NCBI GenBank assembly: GCA_024278555.1
Contig: JAJRSX010000112.1
Location: 1-28,114, forward strand
Source: a bacterium
Lineage (GTDB): Bacteria > CG2-30-53-67 > CG2-30-70-394
Direction of reading: 5' to 3'
Length of the DNA stretch: 28,114 nucleotides
Shown: positions 18,624-27,775 of the stretch, piece after piece
How positions within the stretch are numbered: position 1 is the stretch's first letter
Layout of the letters: each line of letters starts with the position of its first letter
The notes under the pieces: model-generated
The model's input: the letters and a program-made list of their open reading frames with translations, nothing else
Database searches by the model: none
Told to the model about the DNA's origin: nothing
Made by a program: the position numbers and the translations under genes

Positions 18624-18953
18624 ATGGACGGACGAAAAATTCTGATCATTGCCGGGCCGAACGGCGCCGGGAAGACCACCTTCGCCCGGGAGCTGTTGCC
18701 CAACGAGGCATCGTGTCCACAGTTCCTGAATACCGACCTGATCGCGGCGTGATTATCGCCATTTGTGCCAGAGCTGGCAGCCGTGCGCGCGGGACGACTC
18801 ATGCTGCAAACAATCTTCGCCATGGAGCGGCGGGGCGAGAACTTTGCATTTGAGACCACACTCGCCGGCCTATCGTATCTGCGGCACATCCGGCGCTGGC
18901 GGACGGCCAGATACCATGTCTCATCGATTGGGGAGAAAACAGATGAATCGTAA
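18624..18953 (+). pseudogene. Zeta-toxin-like P-loop ATPase relic
   Basis: The frame begins [20 protein letters not shown], with a Walker A motif, then NTDLIAA. It is interrupted by TGA at 18750 and continues in the same frame as LSPFVPELAAVRAGRLMLQ and FAFETTLAGLSYLRHIRRWR. These are features of the zeta-toxin/COG4185-type ATPase family of about 190-200 residues. The stop probably replaced a glycine codon (GGA to TGA). After about residue 95 the similarity ends and the frame closes with SSIGEKTDES, so the C-terminal half is deleted. Lower GC content than its neighbours suggests transfer. It sits between purD and purH. Confidence 0.8.
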
Positions 18954-19352: not shown

Positions 19353-20871
19353 CTAGTGGCGGAAGTGGCGCATGGAGGTCAGCACCATCGCCATCCCATG
19401 CTCATTCGCCGCCGCGATCACCTCTTCGTCGCGGATCGAGCCGCCGGGCTGGATGACGCAGCTCGCCCCGGCCTTGGCCGCCTCGTCGATGCCGTCGCGG
19501 AAGGGGAAGAAGGCGTCGGAGGCCAGGGCACACCCCTGGGTCTCTTCGGTGGCCTTCATCGCCGCGATGCGGGTGGAGTCGACCCGGCTCATCTGGCCGG
19601 CGCCGATCCCCACGGTGCGGTCGGCGCGGGTGAGGATGATGGCGTTCGACTTGACGTGCTTGCAGACCACCCAGGCGAAGCGCATCGCCGCCATCTCCTC
19701 GTCGGTGGGCCGGCGCTCGGTGACCACCTTGAGCTCGCTCTCGTTGAGGATGGCGAGGTCGCGATCCTGCAGGAGGAGGCCGCCGACGATCCGCTTGTAC
19801 TCCAGCCCCGGGCTGGCGGTGTCGCCGAGGGGGCCGACGTCGAGCAGCCGCAGGTTCTTCTTCTTGGCAAACAGCTCCAGGGCGGCGGGCTCGAAGCCGG
19901 GGGCGATGATCACCTCGGTAAAGACCTCGGCGATCGCCGCGGCGGTCGCCTCGTCGATCTGCTGGTTCACCGCGACGACGCCGCCGAAGGCGGAGACGGG
20001 GTCGCAGAGGCGCGCCTTCTCGTAGGCCTCGGCGAGGTTGGCGCCGGTGGCGGCGCCGCAGGGGTTGTTGTGTTTGATGATCGCGCACGAGCAGGCGGGC
20101 AGCTCGCGCACCAGCTCCAAGGCGGAGTTGGCGTCCTGGTAGTTGTTGTAGCTCATCGCCTTGCCCTGGAGGACCTTGCCGCGGGCGACGCACGGGGCGG
20201 CGTAGCCCGGCTCCAGGTAGACCGCCGCCGACTGGTGCGGGTTCTCCCCGTAGCGGAGGGTGTCGAGGCGCTCGAAGCGGAGGGTGAGCTGCTCCGGGAA
20301 GGGGGCCTCGTCGGTCGCCTGACCGAGGTAATCGGCGATCAGGCCGTCGTAGCGGCTGGTGTGGGCGAAGACCTTGCGCGCCAGCTTGCGGCGGGTGCTC
20401 GTCGAGGACCACCGCGTAGTCGGCCGGGTCGACCACCACCGCCACGTCGCGGTGGTTCTTGGCGGCGGAGCGGAGCATGGCCGGGCCGCCGATGTCGATG
20501 TTCTCGATCGCCTCCTCGAAGGTGCAGCCCGCCTTCGCGGTGGTCGCCTCGAAGGGGTAGAGGTTGACCACCAGCAGGTCGATGGAGCGGATCCCGTGGG
20601 CCTCCATGGCGGCGACGTGGCTGGGGTCGTCGCGCCGGGCCAGGAGGCCCCCGTGGATCTTCGGGTGCAGGGTCTTTACCCGGCCGTCCATCATCTCGGG
20701 AAAGCCGGTGACCTCCTCCACCGGGGTGACCTCAAGCCCGGCCGCGGTGAGGGCCTTGGCGGTGCCGCCGGTGGAGATGAGCTGGACCCCGCGCTCGGCG
20801 AGGCCGCGGGCGAAGTCGACGATGCCATTCTTGTCGGAGACGGAGATCAGGGCGCGTTTAATGGCCGGCAT
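19353..20871 (-). pseudogene. purH: PurH (AICAR transformylase/IMP cyclohydrolase) with an apparent frameshift
   Basis: PurH performs the last two steps of IMP synthesis. The ATG at 20871 has AAAGGAG six bases ahead. The first 158 residues are the IMP-cyclohydrolase part ([48 protein letters not shown]). Near 20397 the frame shifts: the coding continues as [18 protein letters not shown] and GENPHQSAA, then the transformylase domain with [12 protein letters not shown] and its catalytic Lys-His, down to SMRHFRH at 19353. The two parts add up to about 505 residues against 523-529 usually. About ten residues seem missing at the join, which suggests a deletion of roughly 29 bases rather than a single-base slip. 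As PurH is usually needed, an assembly error is possible. Confidence 0.9.
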
Positions 20872-20999
20872 GGCGGCTCCTTTGCACGGGAAATCGGGGC
20901 GCGGACGGTACCACGGCGGACGAATCGGCGGCAAAAGACGACCTCTACCGCGCCCCCTCGCCCTCTGACCCGGCACCAAACCGGCTCAACCATCCACCA

Positions 21000-21080
21000 G
21001 TGCGCCGCGCTCCGCTTGGCACACCCTACAACAAGGGTGAACGAGAAACCGTAGGGTGCGCCAACCGCAGGGCGGCGCAC
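21000..21080. repeat. GTAGGGTGCGCC-type palindromic repeat
   Basis: Arms of 30 bases at 21000-21029 and 21051-21080 match at 26 of 30 positions when inverted, around a 21-base loop. The ends read gtgcgccgcgctccgc and its counterpart, with gtagggtgcgcc at the inner side. This resembles a widespread intergenic palindrome of proteobacteria. It lies between the cysteine-cluster gene and purH. Confidence 0.8.
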
Positions 21081-21089
21081 CGGGCCGAG

Positions 21090-21428
21090 CTACGCAAAGC
21101 AGTCGCGCAGGTTGGGCGGCCCGGGGGAGAAGTAGGTGTAGTAGGCGCACTCGGCCGGCAGCCACCCCTCGGCGAGCACTTCGAGGGTGAGGGAGCGGCA
21201 CCCCTGCTTACAAGCGTGGCGGTCGTCATAGACCGTGCACAGGTGGGTGTCGGTGTCGAGGTACTCGCACGGGGTGTCGCTGTAGGCGACGCGCCCGTCG
21301 GCGCCGTACGCCTTCTCGAAGCAGCACTGGCCGCACCGGCTGCACACATCCGGCAGGGTATGGTCGTCGAGGGGCGCGGACGGGTTGGGGTCGAGGGGCA
21401 GGATCGGCATGGCGTCAATGGGGTACAC
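21090..21428 (-). CDS. YkgJ-like cysteine-cluster protein
   Basis: The 112-residue protein contains DVCSRCGQCCFEKAYGADG, then PCEYLDTDTHLCTVYDDRH and CKQGCRSL. This is the CxxCxxCC...C...C pattern of the YkgJ/UPF0260-type family, thought to bind zinc or an iron-sulfur cluster. The molecular function of the family is not established. The annotated start is a GTG at 21428; an ATG at 21410 (MPILPLDP) is an alternative, and neither has a clear ribosome-binding site. It lies downstream of the phosphoglycerate mutase gene on the same strand, 100 bases away, so co-transcription is uncertain. Confidence 0.75.
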   Translation of the reverse strand: MYPIDAMPILPLDPNPSAPLDDHTLPDVCSRCGQCCFEKAYGADGRVAYSDTPCEYLDTDTHLCTVYDDRHACKQGCRSLTLEVLAEGWLPAECAYYTYFSPGPPNLRDCFA

Positions 21429-21528
21429 GCACCATATCGACGCCGTATTATCAATAGGTTACGGACTTTTTTACTGCTCACATGGCGCCCCTTTGAGCCA
21501 CCTCCGGTCGCCCCGGCCCGGCCGTACC

Positions 21529-22800
21529 CTAGAGCGGCTCGCCGGGTACGTAGTTCCGGCCGAACCCCATGAGGTCGACCATCGACCAGAGCAGGCCGCG
21601 GCCCGGGATGCGGCCGAGGCCGCCGCCCATGCAGGCGGTCTCGCCGAAGCGGCCGACCCCGTCGCGGCGGGAGCCGGGGCCAGCGAGCAGGGCCGGCACT
21701 GGATCTCCCGCGTGAAAGCCGAGGGCGCACGGGGTGGCGTGGTCGCCGGTGACCGCCACCACCCGGTCGTCGGTGAGCAGGGGGGCGAGGGCGGCGTCGA
21801 TGCGGGCGAGGAAGTCGCGCTTCGCCTCCGGCCTCCGGTCGTGGCTGAGGGTGTCGCCCCCCTTGATGTGGAGGAAGCAGAGATCGTGGTCGGCCAGGGC
21901 GGCCTCCGCCACCTCCGCCTTCGCCGCCAGGTCGGTGGCCGGGTCGGCGGTGAAGCGCGGGTCGGAGAGGGTGTCGAGGTTCACCGCCCGGGCGAGGCCG
22001 AGGACGGTCGCGTCGCCCGAGACCACCGCGCCGCGGATGCCGTAGCGGGCGAGGAGGCCGTGGGAGCGGTGGGCGGTGCCGGCGCCGCGCGGCAGGAGGC
22101 AGTTCGCCTCCGGCAGGGAGGCGGCGCGACGGGCCTGGTTGAGCGGGTGGTCGCGGAGGCGCTCGTGGGCGAGGGTGACCAGCCGGTTGACCAGCCGCGC
22201 CGTGTGGTCGGCGGCGGTGTCCTCCCCGTCGAGGGAGACACACCGCTGGAGGCCGAGGTGCAGCGCCCCGCCGCCGGGGTCGACATCGCTCACCCGCGGC
22301 GACAGGCCCGGGCCACGCAGGCGCAGGGCGACGCGAAACTGGGCGGCGGGCCGCAAACTCGCCTCCACCCCGTGGCCGAGGTCGGCGCCGTCGAGGACGG
22401 CGCACAGCTCCGCGGTCCCCGCGTCGATACGGCCGGCGCGCCGGTCCAGGAGCGGCAGGGAGAAGGGATCCCCACCACCGGGGCCGAGGGTGGCGAGGTT
22501 GCAGCGGAAGGCGACGTCGCCCGGTGCCACCTCCAGCCCGACCCCCGCCGCCTCCAGGGGTCCGCGGGGCAAGAGCTCGTCGGGCGGCCGCAGGCCGAAG
22601 AGGATCCCGATCCCCGCCTCGGTCCCCACCGCCAGGCCCGGGTAGACGAGGTCGATGAGCCCCGCCAGGCCGCGGCCGGCGAGGCGGTCGAGGTTGGGGG
22701 TGGCGGCCGCCTCCAGGGGGGTAAGGCCGTCGAGCTCGACGCACGGCCGGTCGCCGAGGCCGTCGAGGATCACCATCAAACCGCGGGGTCGTGGATCCAT
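21529..22800 (-). CDS. apgM: Archaeal-type 2,3-bisphosphoglycerate-independent phosphoglycerate mutase
   Basis: The enzyme interconverts 3- and 2-phosphoglycerate using two metal ions and belongs to the alkaline-phosphatase superfamily. Motifs are LMVILDGLGDRPCVELDGLT (metal-binding Asp), ATPNLDRLA, a central AVVSGDATVLGLARA, FLHIKGGDTLSHDRRPEAK, AVTGDHATPCALGFHAGDPV and ETACMGGGLGRIPG near the end. The 423 residues fit the ApgM family (about 400-415) rather than the longer GpmI. The ATG at 22800 lacks a good ribosome-binding site. A 2-phosphoglycerate kinase gene lies 55 bases upstream on the same strand, so both act on 2-phosphoglycerate and are likely co-transcribed. Confidence 0.88.
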   Translation of the reverse strand: MDPRPRGLMVILDGLGDRPCVELDGLTPLEAAATPNLDRLAGRGLAGLIDLVYPGLAVGTEAGIGILFGLRPPDELLPRGPLEAAGVGLEVAPGDVAFRCNLATLGPGGGDPFSLPLLDRRAGRIDAGTAELCAVLDGADLGHGVEASLRPAAQFRVALRLRGPGLSPRVSDVDPGGGALHLGLQRCVSLDGEDTAADHTARLVNRLVTLAHERLRDHPLNQARRAASLPEANCLLPRGAGTAHRSHGLLARYGIRGAVVSGDATVLGLARAVNLDTLSDPRFTADPATDLAAKAEVAEAALADHDLCFLHIKGGDTLSHDRRPEAKRDFLARIDAALAPLLTDDRVVAVTGDHATPCALGFHAGDPVPALLAGPGSRRDGVGRFGETACMGGGLGRIPGRGLLWSMVDLMGFGRNYVPGEPL

Positions 22801-22855
22801 GGGGGAATAGAGAGCCGGGAGGCAAATGGCGGGTGCGGCGCCGCGCGCCGAGCCT

Positions 22856-24016
22856 TCAGAGCTTGTTGACGTCCGGGGGGTGGCGCTGGGCGAGCTCCTT
22901 GGTGACCAGGTCGATCACCGCCTGCACCGTATCACCCACGGTGTGGCTGGGGACGATGGGGATCCCCTCCTGGTCCGAGGTCTCTAGGAGGTGGGCCTGG
23001 ATCTCCCAGATCTCGTCGAAGTGGCTGAGGTACCGGTCGCGGCGCCGCTGGGGGGCGGCGTCGGTGCGGCGGCTGAAGTGCTCCTTCAGCTCCTCCTTGT
23101 CGAGGGTGGCGAGCATCACCGGCACCACCATCGCCTGCTCCCGGAAGGGGGCGAGGTCGAGGGTCGGGGCGAAGCAGTGGACGCCGTCGATCACCATGTG
23201 GACCATCTCGGTGATCGCCCGCCGGATGGTGGCGTGGATCGGTACCCGCATCGCCTGAATCTGGGCGTAGAACCCCTCCAAGACGCGCTGCTTCGAGGTC
23301 TCTCCCGGGAGCGCCTGCCAGGCGTCGTAGGTGGAGCGAAAGAGGGTCGGCATGAGCTCCGGGGCGAGCATCAACCGCATCACCTCGCGCAACATGTCGG
23401 TGGACTGGGAGCGCACCAAACCGAGGCGGTAGGCCACCTCCGCCGCCACCACGCTCTTGCCCGATCCGGTGGCCCCGCCCACGAGGAGGATCAGGGGGCG
23501 ACCGCTGCGGTGAAAGCGCCGCCACACCAGGTAGTTGTCCGCGTCCTTGGCGCCCGCCGCCGCCTTGATCACCTCGTAGGTCTTGCGCCGCAGATCCAGC
23601 GAGTTCACCTCCAGCTCGCCCGCCGCCTCGAGCTGCTGCTGGATGGTGAGGGCGATGCGGTAGGCGGCGGGTGGGTCGATGGCGCACGCCTGGAGCGAGC
23701 GGGCGAGGGTGGCCGGGGTGAAGGGGATCGGCTGGCCGTCCATGACCACCCGAATGGGCGACTCGGCCGGCCCGCCGTGGGTGTAGCGGTCGCGCACCTC
23801 CTCGCCGAAGCGGGCGGCGAGCCGCTCCCCCACCAGGCCGCGCAGCTTGTGGGCGGGGATCTCCTTCACCCCCTTGAGCGACTCGCGCAGCTCCGAGGCG
23901 ACCGCGTACGCCTCGGTGAAGGTGAGCCCCACGTCGACCAACGACTGGGTGAGGAGCCCGCGCAGGAAGGGGATGCGGTCATCGCGGGTGCGATAGGTGA
24001 CGAGGGGACGGGCCAT
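22856..24016 (-). CDS. 2-phosphoglycerate kinase with N-terminal ATP-cone-like domains
   Basis: The 386-residue protein has two tandem ATP-cone-like segments. The first is near residues 5-75 (VTYRTRDDRIPFLRGLLTQS); the second is near 88-155 (MDGQPIPFTPATLARSLQA). A kinase domain with the Walker A motif GGATGSGKS at 180-188 follows, then RSQSTDMLREVMR and MVIDGVHCFAPTLDL. This resembles archaeal 2-phosphoglycerate kinase, which makes 2,3-bisphosphoglycerate, the precursor of cyclic 2,3-diphosphoglycerate. The bacterial role is unclear, as no cyclic-diphosphoglycerate synthetase is seen. ATP-cones often give allosteric nucleotide control. The gene precedes apgM. Confidence 0.85.
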   Translation of the reverse strand: MARPLVTYRTRDDRIPFLRGLLTQSLVDVGLTFTEAYAVASELRESLKGVKEIPAHKLRGLVGERLAARFGEEVRDRYTHGGPAESPIRVVMDGQPIPFTPATLARSLQACAIDPPAAYRIALTIQQQLEAAGELEVNSLDLRRKTYEVIKAAAGAKDADNYLVWRRFHRSGRPLILLVGGATGSGKSVVAAEVAYRLGLVRSQSTDMLREVMRLMLAPELMPTLFRSTYDAWQALPGETSKQRVLEGFYAQIQAMRVPIHATIRRAITEMVHMVIDGVHCFAPTLDLAPFREQAMVVPVMLATLDKEELKEHFSRRTDAAPQRRRDRYLSHFDEIWEIQAHLLETSDQEGIPIVPSHTVGDTVQAVIDLVTKELAQRHPPDVNKL

Positions 24017-24038
24017 GGGGGCGTTCGCTATCGCTCGC

Positions 24039-24184
24039 GGGGATGGGGGGTGGGGGATGAGGGGTGGGGGAATGGTTGGCCGCTACCGCGGCCAACAGGA
24101 TGTCTCATGGTGGCTTCCATCGGCATATATCAGCCCGCGGGGCTCTCCTTCCCCCACCCCCCATCCCTTATCCCTCATCCCCGG
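24039..24184. repeat. Palindromic dispersed element, copy 2
   Basis: The G-rich arm (24039-24070) has runs of G4 to G6 with loops of one to four bases, a strong G-quadruplex motif. A nine-base-pair hairpin gttggccgc/gcggccaac (24075-24096) follows. A core with GGCTTCCATCGGCATAT and an agccc-gcg-gggct hairpin comes next, then a C-rich arm (about 24148-24184) complementary to the G-rich arm. The order of parts equals that of copy 1 at 982-1108. It separates the PiT gene from the 2-phosphoglycerate kinase gene. Confidence 0.75.
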
Positions 24185-24197
24185 GGCCGCAGGCCCC

Positions 24198-25448
24198 TCA
24201 AGAAAACACCCCTTTGAAGAAGAAAAAGAAGAAGCTCGCCAGGATCGCCCCGGCCGGCAGGGTGACCAGCCAGGAGACGAGGATGCCGCCGATCACCCGC
24301 AGATCCAGCGCCCCGATACCGCGCGCCAAGCCGACGCCGAGGACCGCCCCCACCAGGGTGTGGGTGGTGGAGACCGGCATGCCGCTGAGCGACGCCACGA
24401 CGATGGTGGCGGCGGCGGCGAGCTCGGCGGAGAAGCCGCGGGTGGGGGTGAGCTCGGTGATCTTGCGGCCGATGGTCTCGATGATCCGGTAGCCCCACAT
24501 GGCGAGGCCGGCGAGAATCCCGCCACCCCCCAGAACCATCACCCAGGTGGGGACCGGCGATGCCTGCGACACCGTCCCGGTGGCCGCGACATTGACGACC
24601 GCGGCCAGCGGCCCAATGGCATTGGCCACGTCGTTGGAGCCGTGGGCGAAGGCGACGGCACAGGCGGTGCACACCTGCAGGACGGCGAAGATCCGCTCCA
24701 CGTTGGCATAGTGGAAGTCGCGATCCGCCTCCAGGTCTACCTGGATGCGGCGGATGATGGCGGCCCCCACCAGGGCCGCGGCGGCGCCGATCGCCACCGC
24801 CACCGCGAATGCCTGCCCCACGGAGAGGTCGAGATGGAGGTGCTTCAACCCCTTGAATGAGGTCAGCAGCCCGAGGATCAGGAAGACCGCGAAGATGTAG
24901 AGGGGGCCATAGCGGCGTGCCCGGGCAAAGGGGTCCCCGTGCTCCAGGATGGTGCGCCGGACCACCGTGAAGATGACGAAGGCGATCCCGCCGGCGAGGA
25001 GCGGAGAGGTCACCCAGCTCGCCACGATCTGCCCCACCTTTGCCCAATGGACCGCGTGCGGCCCCAGCCCCACGACCGCGAAGCCCACCACCGCGCCGAC
25101 GATCGAATGGGTGGTGGAGACCGGCCAACCGGCGCGGGTGGCGAAGATCAGCCAGGTCCCGGCGGCGAGAAGGGCGGCGAGCATGCCGTAGATGAGATAC
25201 TCGGGGTTGGCGGCGACGCTGGCGGTGTCGACGATCCCCTTGCGGATCGTCTCGGTGACATCGCCGCCGGCAAAGAAGGCGCCGGAGAACTCGAAGATTG
25301 CCGCCACCACCACCGCCTGGCGGAAGGTGAGGGCGCGCGAGCCCACCGAGGTCCCCATGGCGTTGGCGACATCGTTGGCGCCGATCGCCCAGGCCATGTA
25401 GAAGCCGGCGGCGATGGCGAGGTAGACGAAGGCGGTCGTGTGATCCAT
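24198..25448 (-). CDS. pit: PiT-family inorganic phosphate transporter
   Basis: This inner-membrane carrier imports phosphate, usually as a metal-phosphate complex with protons. It has many hydrophobic helices and both PiT signatures: AWAIGANDVANAMG near the start and AFAHGSNDVANAIGP past the middle. The repeated sequences GWPVSTTHSIVGAVVG and GMPVSTTHTLVGAVLG show the inverted-duplicate structure of the family. The ATG at 25448 (MDHTTAFVYL, 416 residues) is favoured; a GTG at 25484 would add 12 residues without membrane features. The DUF47 gene lies just upstream on the same strand, as is typical for Pit systems. A C-terminal FFFFFFKGVFS end is unusual but hydrophobic. Confidence 0.93.
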   Translation of the reverse strand: MDHTTAFVYLAIAAGFYMAWAIGANDVANAMGTSVGSRALTFRQAVVVAAIFEFSGAFFAGGDVTETIRKGIVDTASVAANPEYLIYGMLAALLAAGTWLIFATRAGWPVSTTHSIVGAVVGFAVVGLGPHAVHWAKVGQIVASWVTSPLLAGGIAFVIFTVVRRTILEHGDPFARARRYGPLYIFAVFLILGLLTSFKGLKHLHLDLSVGQAFAVAVAIGAAAALVGAAIIRRIQVDLEADRDFHYANVERIFAVLQVCTACAVAFAHGSNDVANAIGPLAAVVNVAATGTVSQASPVPTWVMVLGGGGILAGLAMWGYRIIETIGRKITELTPTRGFSAELAAAATIVVASLSGMPVSTTHTLVGAVLGVGLARGIGALDLRVIGGILVSWLVTLPAGAILASFFFFFFKGVFS

Positions 25449-25523
25449 GGCCGGCAGGGGGTTGAGCGGGGTCGGCAGGGGCACCGGCCCGGCAGCCCCG
25501 GCGCCGCCGGGGCACGTTGGAGG

Positions 25524-26201
25524 CTATGTCGCCAAGAAGAGGCGCAGGCGGCTGCCGACCTTCTTTGAATAGTCCGCGAGGTCGCCGGCGAGCTCAATGA
25601 TCCGATACCAGAAGACCACCGAGACCGGGTCGAGCTCACCCTCGATGGCGAAGAGGATCCGGTTCACCTCGGTCTCCAACCGGTCCGCCTCCTCCTCCTT
25701 GTCGCTGAGGGCGTCGACCATGGTCTCCACCCGCGACGCCTCGCGGCCGCGGAAGCCCATCTCCAGGAGCTCGTCGAGTTCGGCGATCACCCCGGCGGCG
25801 GCGTCACACGTCTCCTGGCCGCTCTTCACCAGGGCGAGCATCGGCTCGGCCATCGCCTCGGGCAGGACCATGCGCCGCTCCGCCACCAGCTCGGCGAGGT
25901 CCTGGGCGGTGTCGGCGATGTTGTCCTGGAGGTCGAGGACCTCCAGCAGGTCGCGACGCGCCACCGGCAGGAAGAAGCCCTTTGGGAGGTGGGAGCGGAG
26001 GGCGTTTTTGATCGTGTCCGCCTGGTGCTCCAGGTCGTCGATCTGCGCCCGCTCAACGGCCACGGTGGCGTGGTCGCCGCCGGCCACCGCCTCGAAGAGG
26101 GGGACGACGTGGTCCACGCACCCCCGTACCACCTCCATGTGGCGCTGCATGGGACGAAAGGGAGAGCGACCAAAGAGGTCGCCGAGGAGGGAGGTGGACA
26201 T
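25524..26201 (-). CDS. DUF47/PhoU-like Pit accessory protein
   Basis: The 225-residue all-helical protein starts MSTSLLGDLFGRSPFRPMQR. It contains LEHQADTIKNALRSHLPKGF, a long stretch around VARRDLLEVLDLQDNIADTAQD, and IIELAGDLADYSKKVGSRLR, the hallmarks of the TIGR00153/DUF47 family. Members are encoded next to PiT transporters and are thought to modulate them, with a PhoU-related fold. A GGAG ribosome-binding site precedes the ATG. The pit gene follows within about 75 bases, with a small GC hairpin near 25496-25512 between them. Confidence 0.92.
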   Translation of the reverse strand: MSTSLLGDLFGRSPFRPMQRHMEVVRGCVDHVVPLFEAVAGGDHATVAVERAQIDDLEHQADTIKNALRSHLPKGFFLPVARRDLLEVLDLQDNIADTAQDLAELVAERRMVLPEAMAEPMLALVKSGQETCDAAAGVIAELDELLEMGFRGREASRVETMVDALSDKEEEADRLETEVNRILFAIEGELDPVSVVFWYRIIELAGDLADYSKKVGSRLRLFLAT

Positions 26202-26566
26202 GTGGGCTCCGGAAGAGCGGCCATCCTACGGGGGAACGGCCGCGCCCTCAACGATGGGGGGCGGCCCCATGATTGTCGGGTGGATTCTCGCAGAGAACGG
26301 AGAGGATCAGCGGAAATAGCCCCGAGCGTTCCGTCGTCCTTCACACCGCTGGAACACGAAACCACGACAGGGGGAAAGCACGAAAGACAGCCGATAGAAT
26401 TCTTTCGTGTTTTGAACTTTTCGTGCCTTCGTGTTCCCACCCCCTCGAGGTCTCGGGAACATCGACTTTCTCGCCAGCCATGATTTCCGCTGCTCCTCGG
26501 AGAGATGGCATCAGACCGTCGTGGTAGAGGATGAGGCGATTCCGGGGAGCGGGTCGGTGCTCCCCC
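26202..26566. other. 365-base non-coding gap
   Basis: The gap separates the DUF47 gene from the EAL-HDOD gene (both minus). Most of it is occupied by the second MITE-like element. No small gene was supported. The promoter of the DUF47-pit pair should lie in 26202-26300, but no clear hexamers were found. Confidence 0.5.
26301..26499. repeat. MITE-like palindromic element, copy 2
   Basis: Bases 26301-26363 are identical to 10871-10933. The right end (26482-26499) repeats the left end in inverted form with three mismatches in 18. The interior differs from copy 1: it holds a second inverted pair around gaacacgaa and ttcgtgttc (26352-26435), with phrases of the ttcgtgccttcgtgttc type. It is about 200 bases long and non-coding. 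Confidence 0.75.
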
Positions 26567-27775
26567 CTACTCCCACGCCCCGAAGGTCTCCTCGCTCCAC
26601 TCCACCGCCTCGACGTAGGCGGTGGTGAGCGCCTCCTCGGAGAGGGCGATGGCCGCCGCCTCCGCCGCCACCGCCGGCCAGTCGGCGCGCTCGTAGGCGA
26701 GCATGATGGCGAGGAGGCGACCGAGGCGACCGCGCTGGTGGAGGAGCGCCTCGACGTTCTCCTCGGGAAAACCGAGGGGGGCGATCGCCTCCTCCATGGG
26801 CTGGTCGAGGAAGGCGTCGAGGGTGGAGAAGAGGCCGACGGTGAATGCCTGGGCGCCACGCTCCTTGCCCTCACTTCGCGCCAACAGCTCCATCATCCGA
26901 CCGCGGGTGAGGGCGAGACGGAGGAGCTCGACCGGCTTGGTGGTCCCCACCTCGGTAAGGAAGATGAGGGCCAGCCACTTCTTCACCGCCACCACGCCGA
27001 GGAGGGCCAGGGCCTGGCGGATGGAGGAGACCTCCTGGATGAGGCCGAAGGCGGCGGAGTTGATCAGACGCAGGAGGCGGTAGCTCAGGGCCAGGTCGGT
27101 GGAGATCGCCTCGGCCACCTCCTCGAGCTGGGTGGCGGTGAGGACGTGGCGCATGGAGCGCATCGCCGCGACGCTCGCCCCGGGCTCCCGCTTCTGTTGG
27201 AGCAACGACGGCCGGGCGAAGTAGTACCCCTGGAAGAGGTCGAAGCCGAGGTCGAGGGCGGCGTGGTGCTCCGCCTCGGTCTCCACCTTCTCCGCCAGCA
27301 GCTCGCACTGGTACGGCGCCAGGAGGGCGAGCTGCACCGCCAGGTTGGCGACGGGGATCAGGGTGAGGTCGACCTTGACGATCTGCGCCACCTCCAGGAG
27401 GGGGCCGAAACGCGGCTCGAAGACGAAGTCGTCGAGGGCCACCGTGTACCCCTGGCGGACGAGGGAGCGGCAGGCGGAGACCACCGTCTCGTCCGGCTCC
27501 ACATCTTCGAGGACCTCCAGGACCACCTGCTCGGCGGGCAGGAGGGTCGCGTACTCGGAGACCAGGAGCGAGCGGGTCAGGTTGATGAAGGCGCGCTTGC
27601 CGCCGGTGACCCGCTCGATGCCGAAGGTGCCGAAGGTGTTGATCAGGACCTGGGCGGTGGCGCGGGCGCCGCGCTGGCCGGCGTGCTCCTCCGGCCCCCC
27701 GCGGTAGAGGAGCTCGTAGGCGACCACCTCTCCTTGGCGGTCGAAGATGGGCTGGCGGGCAAGGAAGGCGTGCAT
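26567..27775 (-). CDS. EAL-HDOD signalling protein (YuxH/CdgJ-like)
   Basis: The 402-residue protein has an N-terminal EAL domain (about 1-200): MHAFLARQPIFDRQGEVVAY with the ELL variant of EAL, RAFINLTRSLL, VVLEVLEDVE, VALDDFVFE, IVKVDLTL, AEKVETEAEH and DLFQGYYFARP. A C-terminal HDOD domain (about 205-385) includes LSYRLLRLINSAAFGL and SSIRQALALLGV. Such proteins act in cyclic-di-GMP-linked control of motility or other behaviour. The EAL signature and catalytic set are altered compared with active phosphodiesterases, so it may be a binding or regulatory protein. The ribosome-binding site GAGGAG lies about 12 bases before the ATG, slightly far. Confidence 0.9.
   Translation of the reverse strand: MHAFLARQPIFDRQGEVVAYELLYRGGPEEHAGQRGARATAQVLINTFGTFGIERVTGGKRAFINLTRSLLVSEYATLLPAEQVVLEVLEDVEPDETVVSACRSLVRQGYTVALDDFVFEPRFGPLLEVAQIVKVDLTLIPVANLAVQLALLAPYQCELLAEKVETEAEHHAALDLGFDLFQGYYFARPSLLQQKREPGASVAAMRSMRHVLTATQLEEVAEAISTDLALSYRLLRLINSAAFGLIQEVSSIRQALALLGVVAVKKWLALIFLTEVGTTKPVELLRLALTRGRMMELLARSEGKERGAQAFTVGLFSTLDAFLDQPMEEAIAPLGFPEENVEALLHQRGRLGRLLAIMLAYERADWPAVAAEAAAIALSEEALTTAYVEAVEWSEETFGAWE

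Follow-up and report, generated by a model that had tools for sequence, protein, structure and literature searches.

Described relatives of the kinase and the mutase

The 2-phosphoglycerate kinase (2PGK) of Methanothermus fervidus and its relatives (PRK04220 / PRK12337, COG2074) belong to the synthesis of cyclic 2,3-diphosphoglycerate (cDPG), which in methanogens is regarded as a store of carbon and phosphate (PMC1224877) and keeps total phosphorus high when phosphorus is limited (PMC4302986). A reported plant homolog of the same kinase family, Lpa1 of rice, also affects phosphorus storage according to its published description, as it controls the phytate content of the seeds and its overexpression raises total seed phosphorus (PMC4844318), but its proposed substrate is an inositol phosphate. 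Archaeal-type phosphoglycerate mutases, ApgM (TIGR00306, COG3635), are represented by the structures PDB 2zkt, 3idd, and 3kd8, and both families, 2PGK and ApgM, were noted together in Thermus and Deinococcus in 2005 (PMC1274311). Searching the open-access literature, with most subscription journals outside its scope, we found no bacterial description of the kinase in connection with polyphosphate, PhoU, or ApgM, and kinase and apgM as members of Pit-DUF47, Pst-PhoU, NptA-PhoU, or Ppk1/Ppk2 clusters are undescribed there as well. The first-pass annotation of the DNA described here had seen hints of a role in phosphate storage or stress and supposed such a role to be undescribed in bacteria. This holds as far as the phosphate and polyphosphate context is concerned, which appears to be undescribed, but not for the two families as such, whose joint bacterial occurrence was already known. 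What seems to be new is therefore the phosphate/polyphosphate context of a known enzyme family.

Organization of the locus

The window, which is the whole stretch of 28,114 nucleotides that was analyzed (contig JAJRSX010000112.1), carries five consecutive genes on its minus strand. These encode, in the order of transcription, a DUF47/PhoU_div protein, the PhoU-like Pit partner (25524..26201; PF01865, E 2.2e-47, TIGR00153), the PHO4-family phosphate transporter Pit (24198..25484; PF01384, E 2.5e-122), a 2PGK-like kinase of 386 aa (22856..24016), the alkaline phosphatase superfamily phosphoglycerate mutase ApgM of 423 aa (21529..22800), and a small cysteine-cluster protein that is YcgN-like (21090..21428). 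Pairing of apgM with a 2PGK-like kinase gene, and pit and DUF47 as the next genes upstream, are thus found as the first-pass annotation had them. The intergenic gaps comprise 39 bp between DUF47 and pit, 181 bp between pit and the kinase gene, and 55 bp between the kinase gene and apgM. No match to a sigma-70-type promoter or a simple terminator was found within 20900-26600. A sister genome (locus L050) shows the same order of all five genes. As the position of the small cysteine-cluster gene downstream of apgM is kept in this sister genome alone, its product is probably not part of the kinase-apgM module.

The gap between pit and the kinase gene is occupied by an imperfect palindrome (24036-24190) with 35-nt arms (86%) and a strong predicted RNA fold (z -6). 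Elsewhere in the same genome it has about 40 relatives, which are dispersed, and it is a MITE/REP-like element. It is missing from the pit-kinase junction of the sister genome and is therefore probably a later insertion that lies outside the phosphate system. For these reasons we rejected the hairpin as a regulatory element. Two further observations concern other parts of the window. At 18624-18950 on the plus strand lies the remnant of a P-loop (zeta-toxin-like) kinase with an in-frame stop, which looks like a pseudogene, and purH (19353-20870, minus strand) is apparently split by a frameshift near 20395, which may be either genuine or an artifact of the assembly.

Phosphate and polyphosphate genes around the kinase

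Scanning GTDB genome contigs with an alignment of the family returned 537 kinase relatives, and the best 80 of these, ranked by similarity to the window, were analyzed. They are mostly from Gammaproteobacteria (Sedimenticola, Thiodiazotropha, and other sulfur-oxidizing symbionts), with Planctomycetota, Rhodothermota, Bacteroidota, Acidobacteriota, and Thermodesulfobacteriota as further phyla. Among eight genomes of the small phylum to which the window genome belongs, the kinase is confined to its own genus, and no phage, plasmid, or viral contig with a relative came up in the searches used. In 57 of these best 80 relatives (58/81 with the window), apgM follows immediately downstream of the kinase gene on the same strand. 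The gap between both genes is mostly below 80 bp, and in eleven loci the two overlap by 4 bp, with start codons chosen mechanically; such an overlap is typical of translational coupling.

To describe the wider context, neighboring genes were clustered, the representatives were named by Pfam, and all loci were mapped. Phosphate genes were counted by tblastn at E 1e-8 within about 7 kb of the kinase gene. By this count, genes for phosphate uptake or polyphosphate synthesis (Pit-DUF47, Pst-PhoU, NptA, Ppk1, Ppk2) are located near 65 of the 81 kinase loci, the window included, whereas none were present at 20 control loci, namely those of gpmI in carrier genomes (Fisher p = 1e-11, a value inflated by relatedness). 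The remaining 16 loci, some of which are incomplete, have no phosphate gene. The kinase gene is thus found among such clusters in most carriers, and the partners vary: Pit-DUF47, Pst-PhoU, NptA-PhoU, ppk1 right after apgM, or a divergent ppk2. Because of the relatedness of the sequences, changes of context were also counted on the kinase tree, which requires at least 10 changes for pit/duf47, 16 for pst, 12 for NptA, 10 for ppk2, and 4 for ppk1. This indicates that the phosphate neighborhood has been rebuilt repeatedly. The gene order is consequently not unique to this genome, and the link to phosphate uptake that the first-pass annotation had suggested from Pit and DUF47 extends to other phyla, other Pi transporters, and polyphosphate kinases, with pair and/or phosphate context kept in the sister genome as well as in unrelated phyla.

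A second sample of 274 genomes from one gammaproteobacterial class, unranked by similarity to the window, contained the kinase in 10 genomes, the centre genome included. Outside the centre genome, phosphate genes were present at 9 of 12 kinase loci, but apgM was adjacent at only one of the 12. It is therefore the kinase that is linked to phosphate, with apgM as a frequent but non-obligatory partner, whose high rate among the 80 relatives is partly due to their selection by similarity to the window. The association of the kinase with phosphate genes itself is strongly supported. No phosphate neighbors were found in nine loci of other 2PGKs, which we labeled "Thermus-like" and "Aquifex-like," and apgM was nearby in two of these nine. 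In the latter two (L042, L043), which lack phosphate genes, about 1.4 kb separates the gene of a Thermus-like 2PGK from apgM, so that the pair may exist beyond the phosphate-linked clade.

Domains and phylogeny of the kinase

The kinase shares with the M. fervidus enzyme and its relatives the ATP-cone plus P-loop architecture, the Walker A sequence, and the D207/R210/H280/R317/Q340 motifs, and it can be aligned over its full length with the Thermus/Aquifex-like members of the 2PGK family. It strongly matches the two NCBIfam equivalog models for 2PGK, NF003259 and NF008994, but stays below the curated cut-offs of both (277.9 bits for a cut-off of 343 and 303.7 bits for a cut-off of 603). In its AlphaFold model (pLDDT 88.9), two small alpha/beta domains in succession precede a P-loop kinase. 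The first small domain (approximately residues 1-85, 23762..24016) is delimited by alignment, model, and group-specific columns. The second (approximately residues 86-171, 23504..23761) contains a match to the Pfam ATP-cone over residues 93-170 with E 6.9e-4, which is under the cut-off of that model, and an ATP-cone match is present in 46 of 47 relatives. Moreover, the Foldseek list for the model includes class I and anaerobic ribonucleotide reductases with bound dATP. Model and reductase matches thus support two ATP-cone-like domains, in line with the first-pass annotation, and these probably make the kinase responsive to nucleotides. The P-loop domain (residues 172-386, 22859..23503) has gluconate kinase, adenylate/UMP kinase, and PFK-2 as its best fold matches (Z 11-13, the best 13.0), and its Walker A region, GGATGSGKS at residues 180-188 (23453..23479), is conserved across the family. 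All columns that are invariant among the 47 relatives are retained. No relative of the kinase was found in the PDB by sequence.

In a tree of 92 sequences, which was made by a quick method and has several long branches, the 83 phosphate-linked kinases form a clade apart from the nine Thermus/Aquifex-like 2PGKs (SH-aLRT 99). This clade, to which the window kinase belongs, differs from the other 2PGKs in the first cone, where PFLRG replaces PFSKG, and in three nearly fixed changes: S18L in the cone loop (78/78), H310L (77/78), and R337W (77/78), with S, H, and R in 9/9 of the other 2PGKs. The window kinase, which accordingly carries L310 and W337 where the other 2PGKs have His and Arg, lies near the base of the clade and diverges further from the consensus by H226F and P283A. 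A clade-wide loss of the HxxP motif was rejected, since P283 is kept in the clade and the proline is missing only in the genus of the window. Near the window kinase group second copies encoded beside ppk1, ppk2, or pst on three gammaproteobacterial contigs (L059, L066, L093), each of which harbors two nearby kinase copies, one of them of this divergent type.

Proposed function and the substrate of the kinase

We propose that the pair in the window would be the local form of a conserved bacterial module centred on a kinase related to the archaeal 2PGKs. ApgM would turn 3-phosphoglycerate (3-PG) into 2-phosphoglycerate (2-PG), to which the kinase would add a second phosphate, most likely yielding 2,3-bisphosphoglycerate (2,3-BPG) or a close analog, and the two ATP-cone-like domains would probably set the response of the kinase to nucleotide levels. 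The product could be a soluble phosphate store that also binds cations or, alternatively, a signal by which Pi uptake, here by Pit-DUF47, and polyphosphate synthesis are coupled to the state of energy and carbon. Phosphate homeostasis is very probably the field in which the kinase acts. For the complete scheme, i.e., a nucleotide-gated module for phosphate homeostasis or storage leading from 3-PG via 2-PG to a bisphosphorylated product, we see an even chance, as substrate, product, gating, and role are what we infer, and whether the product is 2,3-BPG itself is similarly finely balanced. A wider reading, toward which we lean somewhat less than away from it, is that in bacteria of several phyla 2,3-BPG or an analogous soluble, bisphosphorylated metabolite is made by ApgM and the ATP-cone kinase, as phosphate store or as signal coupling the energy state to Pi uptake and polyphosphate synthesis. 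Bacterial phosphate homeostasis would then have a new branch, parallel to the use of cDPG by methanogens and of phytate by plants.

It is conceivable, albeit rather unlikely, that the kinase acts in phosphate metabolism on another substrate, e.g., an inositol phosphate or a small phospho-acid, and that apgM is a frequent neighbor supplying glycolytic intermediates. The nearly fixed substitutions that set the clade apart suggest that the substrate may differ from that of 2PGK, and apgM is often non-adjacent. Furthermore, the plant member of the family, Lpa1, has been put forward as an InsP1 kinase (PMC4844318, PMC6417671), and the genome of the window has a homolog of inositol-phosphate synthase. 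However, 16 of the 27 carrier genomes, many of them drafts, gave no such synthase, which weakens the case for inositol phosphate as a general substrate. The tight coupling with apgM in several phyla, on the other hand, favors 2-PG. The retention of every family-invariant residue of the kinase also speaks against this alternative.

ApgM and central metabolism

ApgM reaches 320.9 bits on TIGR00306, just over the cut-off of 320, and also matches PF10143 and PF01676. Its AlphaFold model (pLDDT 92.8) superimposes on the ApgM of Pyrococcus horikoshii (PH0037, 2zkt) with Z 48.0 and 2.6 A over 375 residues. Metal ligands and nucleophile (D13, T60, D316, H320, D353, H354, H363) are invariant or nearly so in 30 relatives, in which the pocket residues R120, R121, R156, R224, R238, and K294 are conserved, too; these assignments follow the equivalence to residues of the B. 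stearothermophilus iPGM. Judged by residues and predicted fold, ApgM likely catalyzes the conversion of 3-PG to 2-PG. In contrast to 2zkt and 3idd, which have Ser as nucleophile, the window ApgM uses Thr60, and it has GT(H/E)xG in place of the GSDTAH of archaeal-type enzymes. We rejected the Thr as the mark of a new reaction, as it is shared by both ApgMs encoded next to Thermus-like kinases (L042, L043) and is thus not peculiar to the phosphate-linked clade.

The apparent catalytic completeness of ApgM would also suit an ordinary role in central metabolism, in which ApgM would be an additional mutase of glycolysis, while the kinase would produce 2,3-BPG, which is known as the primer of the cofactor-dependent mutase (dPGM). 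Nevertheless, this is very improbable. Unlike the archaeal-type enzymes, the window ApgM coexists with GpmI (414.9 bits), encoded elsewhere than the locus, and GpmA (TIGR01258) has no match in the same genome. Among 30 genomes tested, GpmI is above the cut-off in 22 and GpmA in three, leaving 27 in which it is not. With GpmI present and GpmA scarce, ApgM is probably dispensable for glycolysis and 2,3-BPG is probably not needed as a primer. Therefore, we rejected both ApgM as sole glycolytic mutase and a primer function in this genome, and an ordinary metabolic role would leave the phosphate gene context unexplained. The single ppk1 of the genome is likewise located elsewhere than the locus.

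Relation to cDPG synthesis and significance

A compatible-solute route to cDPG, as in thermophilic methanogens, would share the first enzyme family and the precursor (PMC12136491), but it is hardly to be expected here. The window kinase stands in a phosphate/polyphosphate context rather than in one of cDPG synthesis, no cDPG synthetase is among the recurrent neighbor families identified around the pair, and cDPG is described as occurring in hyperthermophilic methanogens only (PMC10690619). That Pit-DUF47 are meaningless chance neighbors is the least credible explanation, since the phosphate genes at most kinase loci and at no control locus, their frequency in the second sample, and the recurrence of independent rearrangements with different phosphate genes outweigh the uncertain co-transcription caused by the dispersed repeat in the window.

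The recurrent pair beside phosphate genes points to an undescribed step of bacterial phosphate uptake or storage. If the proposed phosphate module is true, it would give a bacterial function to a kinase family known from cDPG synthesis in methanogens and from rice, where the low-phytate phenotype is incompletely explained. Phosphate uptake and the accumulation of polyphosphate would also gain a further step, one that involves a metabolite, e.g., in sulfur-oxidizing symbionts (Sedimenticola, Thiodiazotropha), Planctomycetota, and Rhodothermota. Apart from the phosphate genes, transporters of the CNNM/CorC type recur near the kinase (L172, L173, L174, L102, and Thiodiazotropha loci), where they perhaps contribute to the cation balance of polyphosphate or bisphosphoglycerate.
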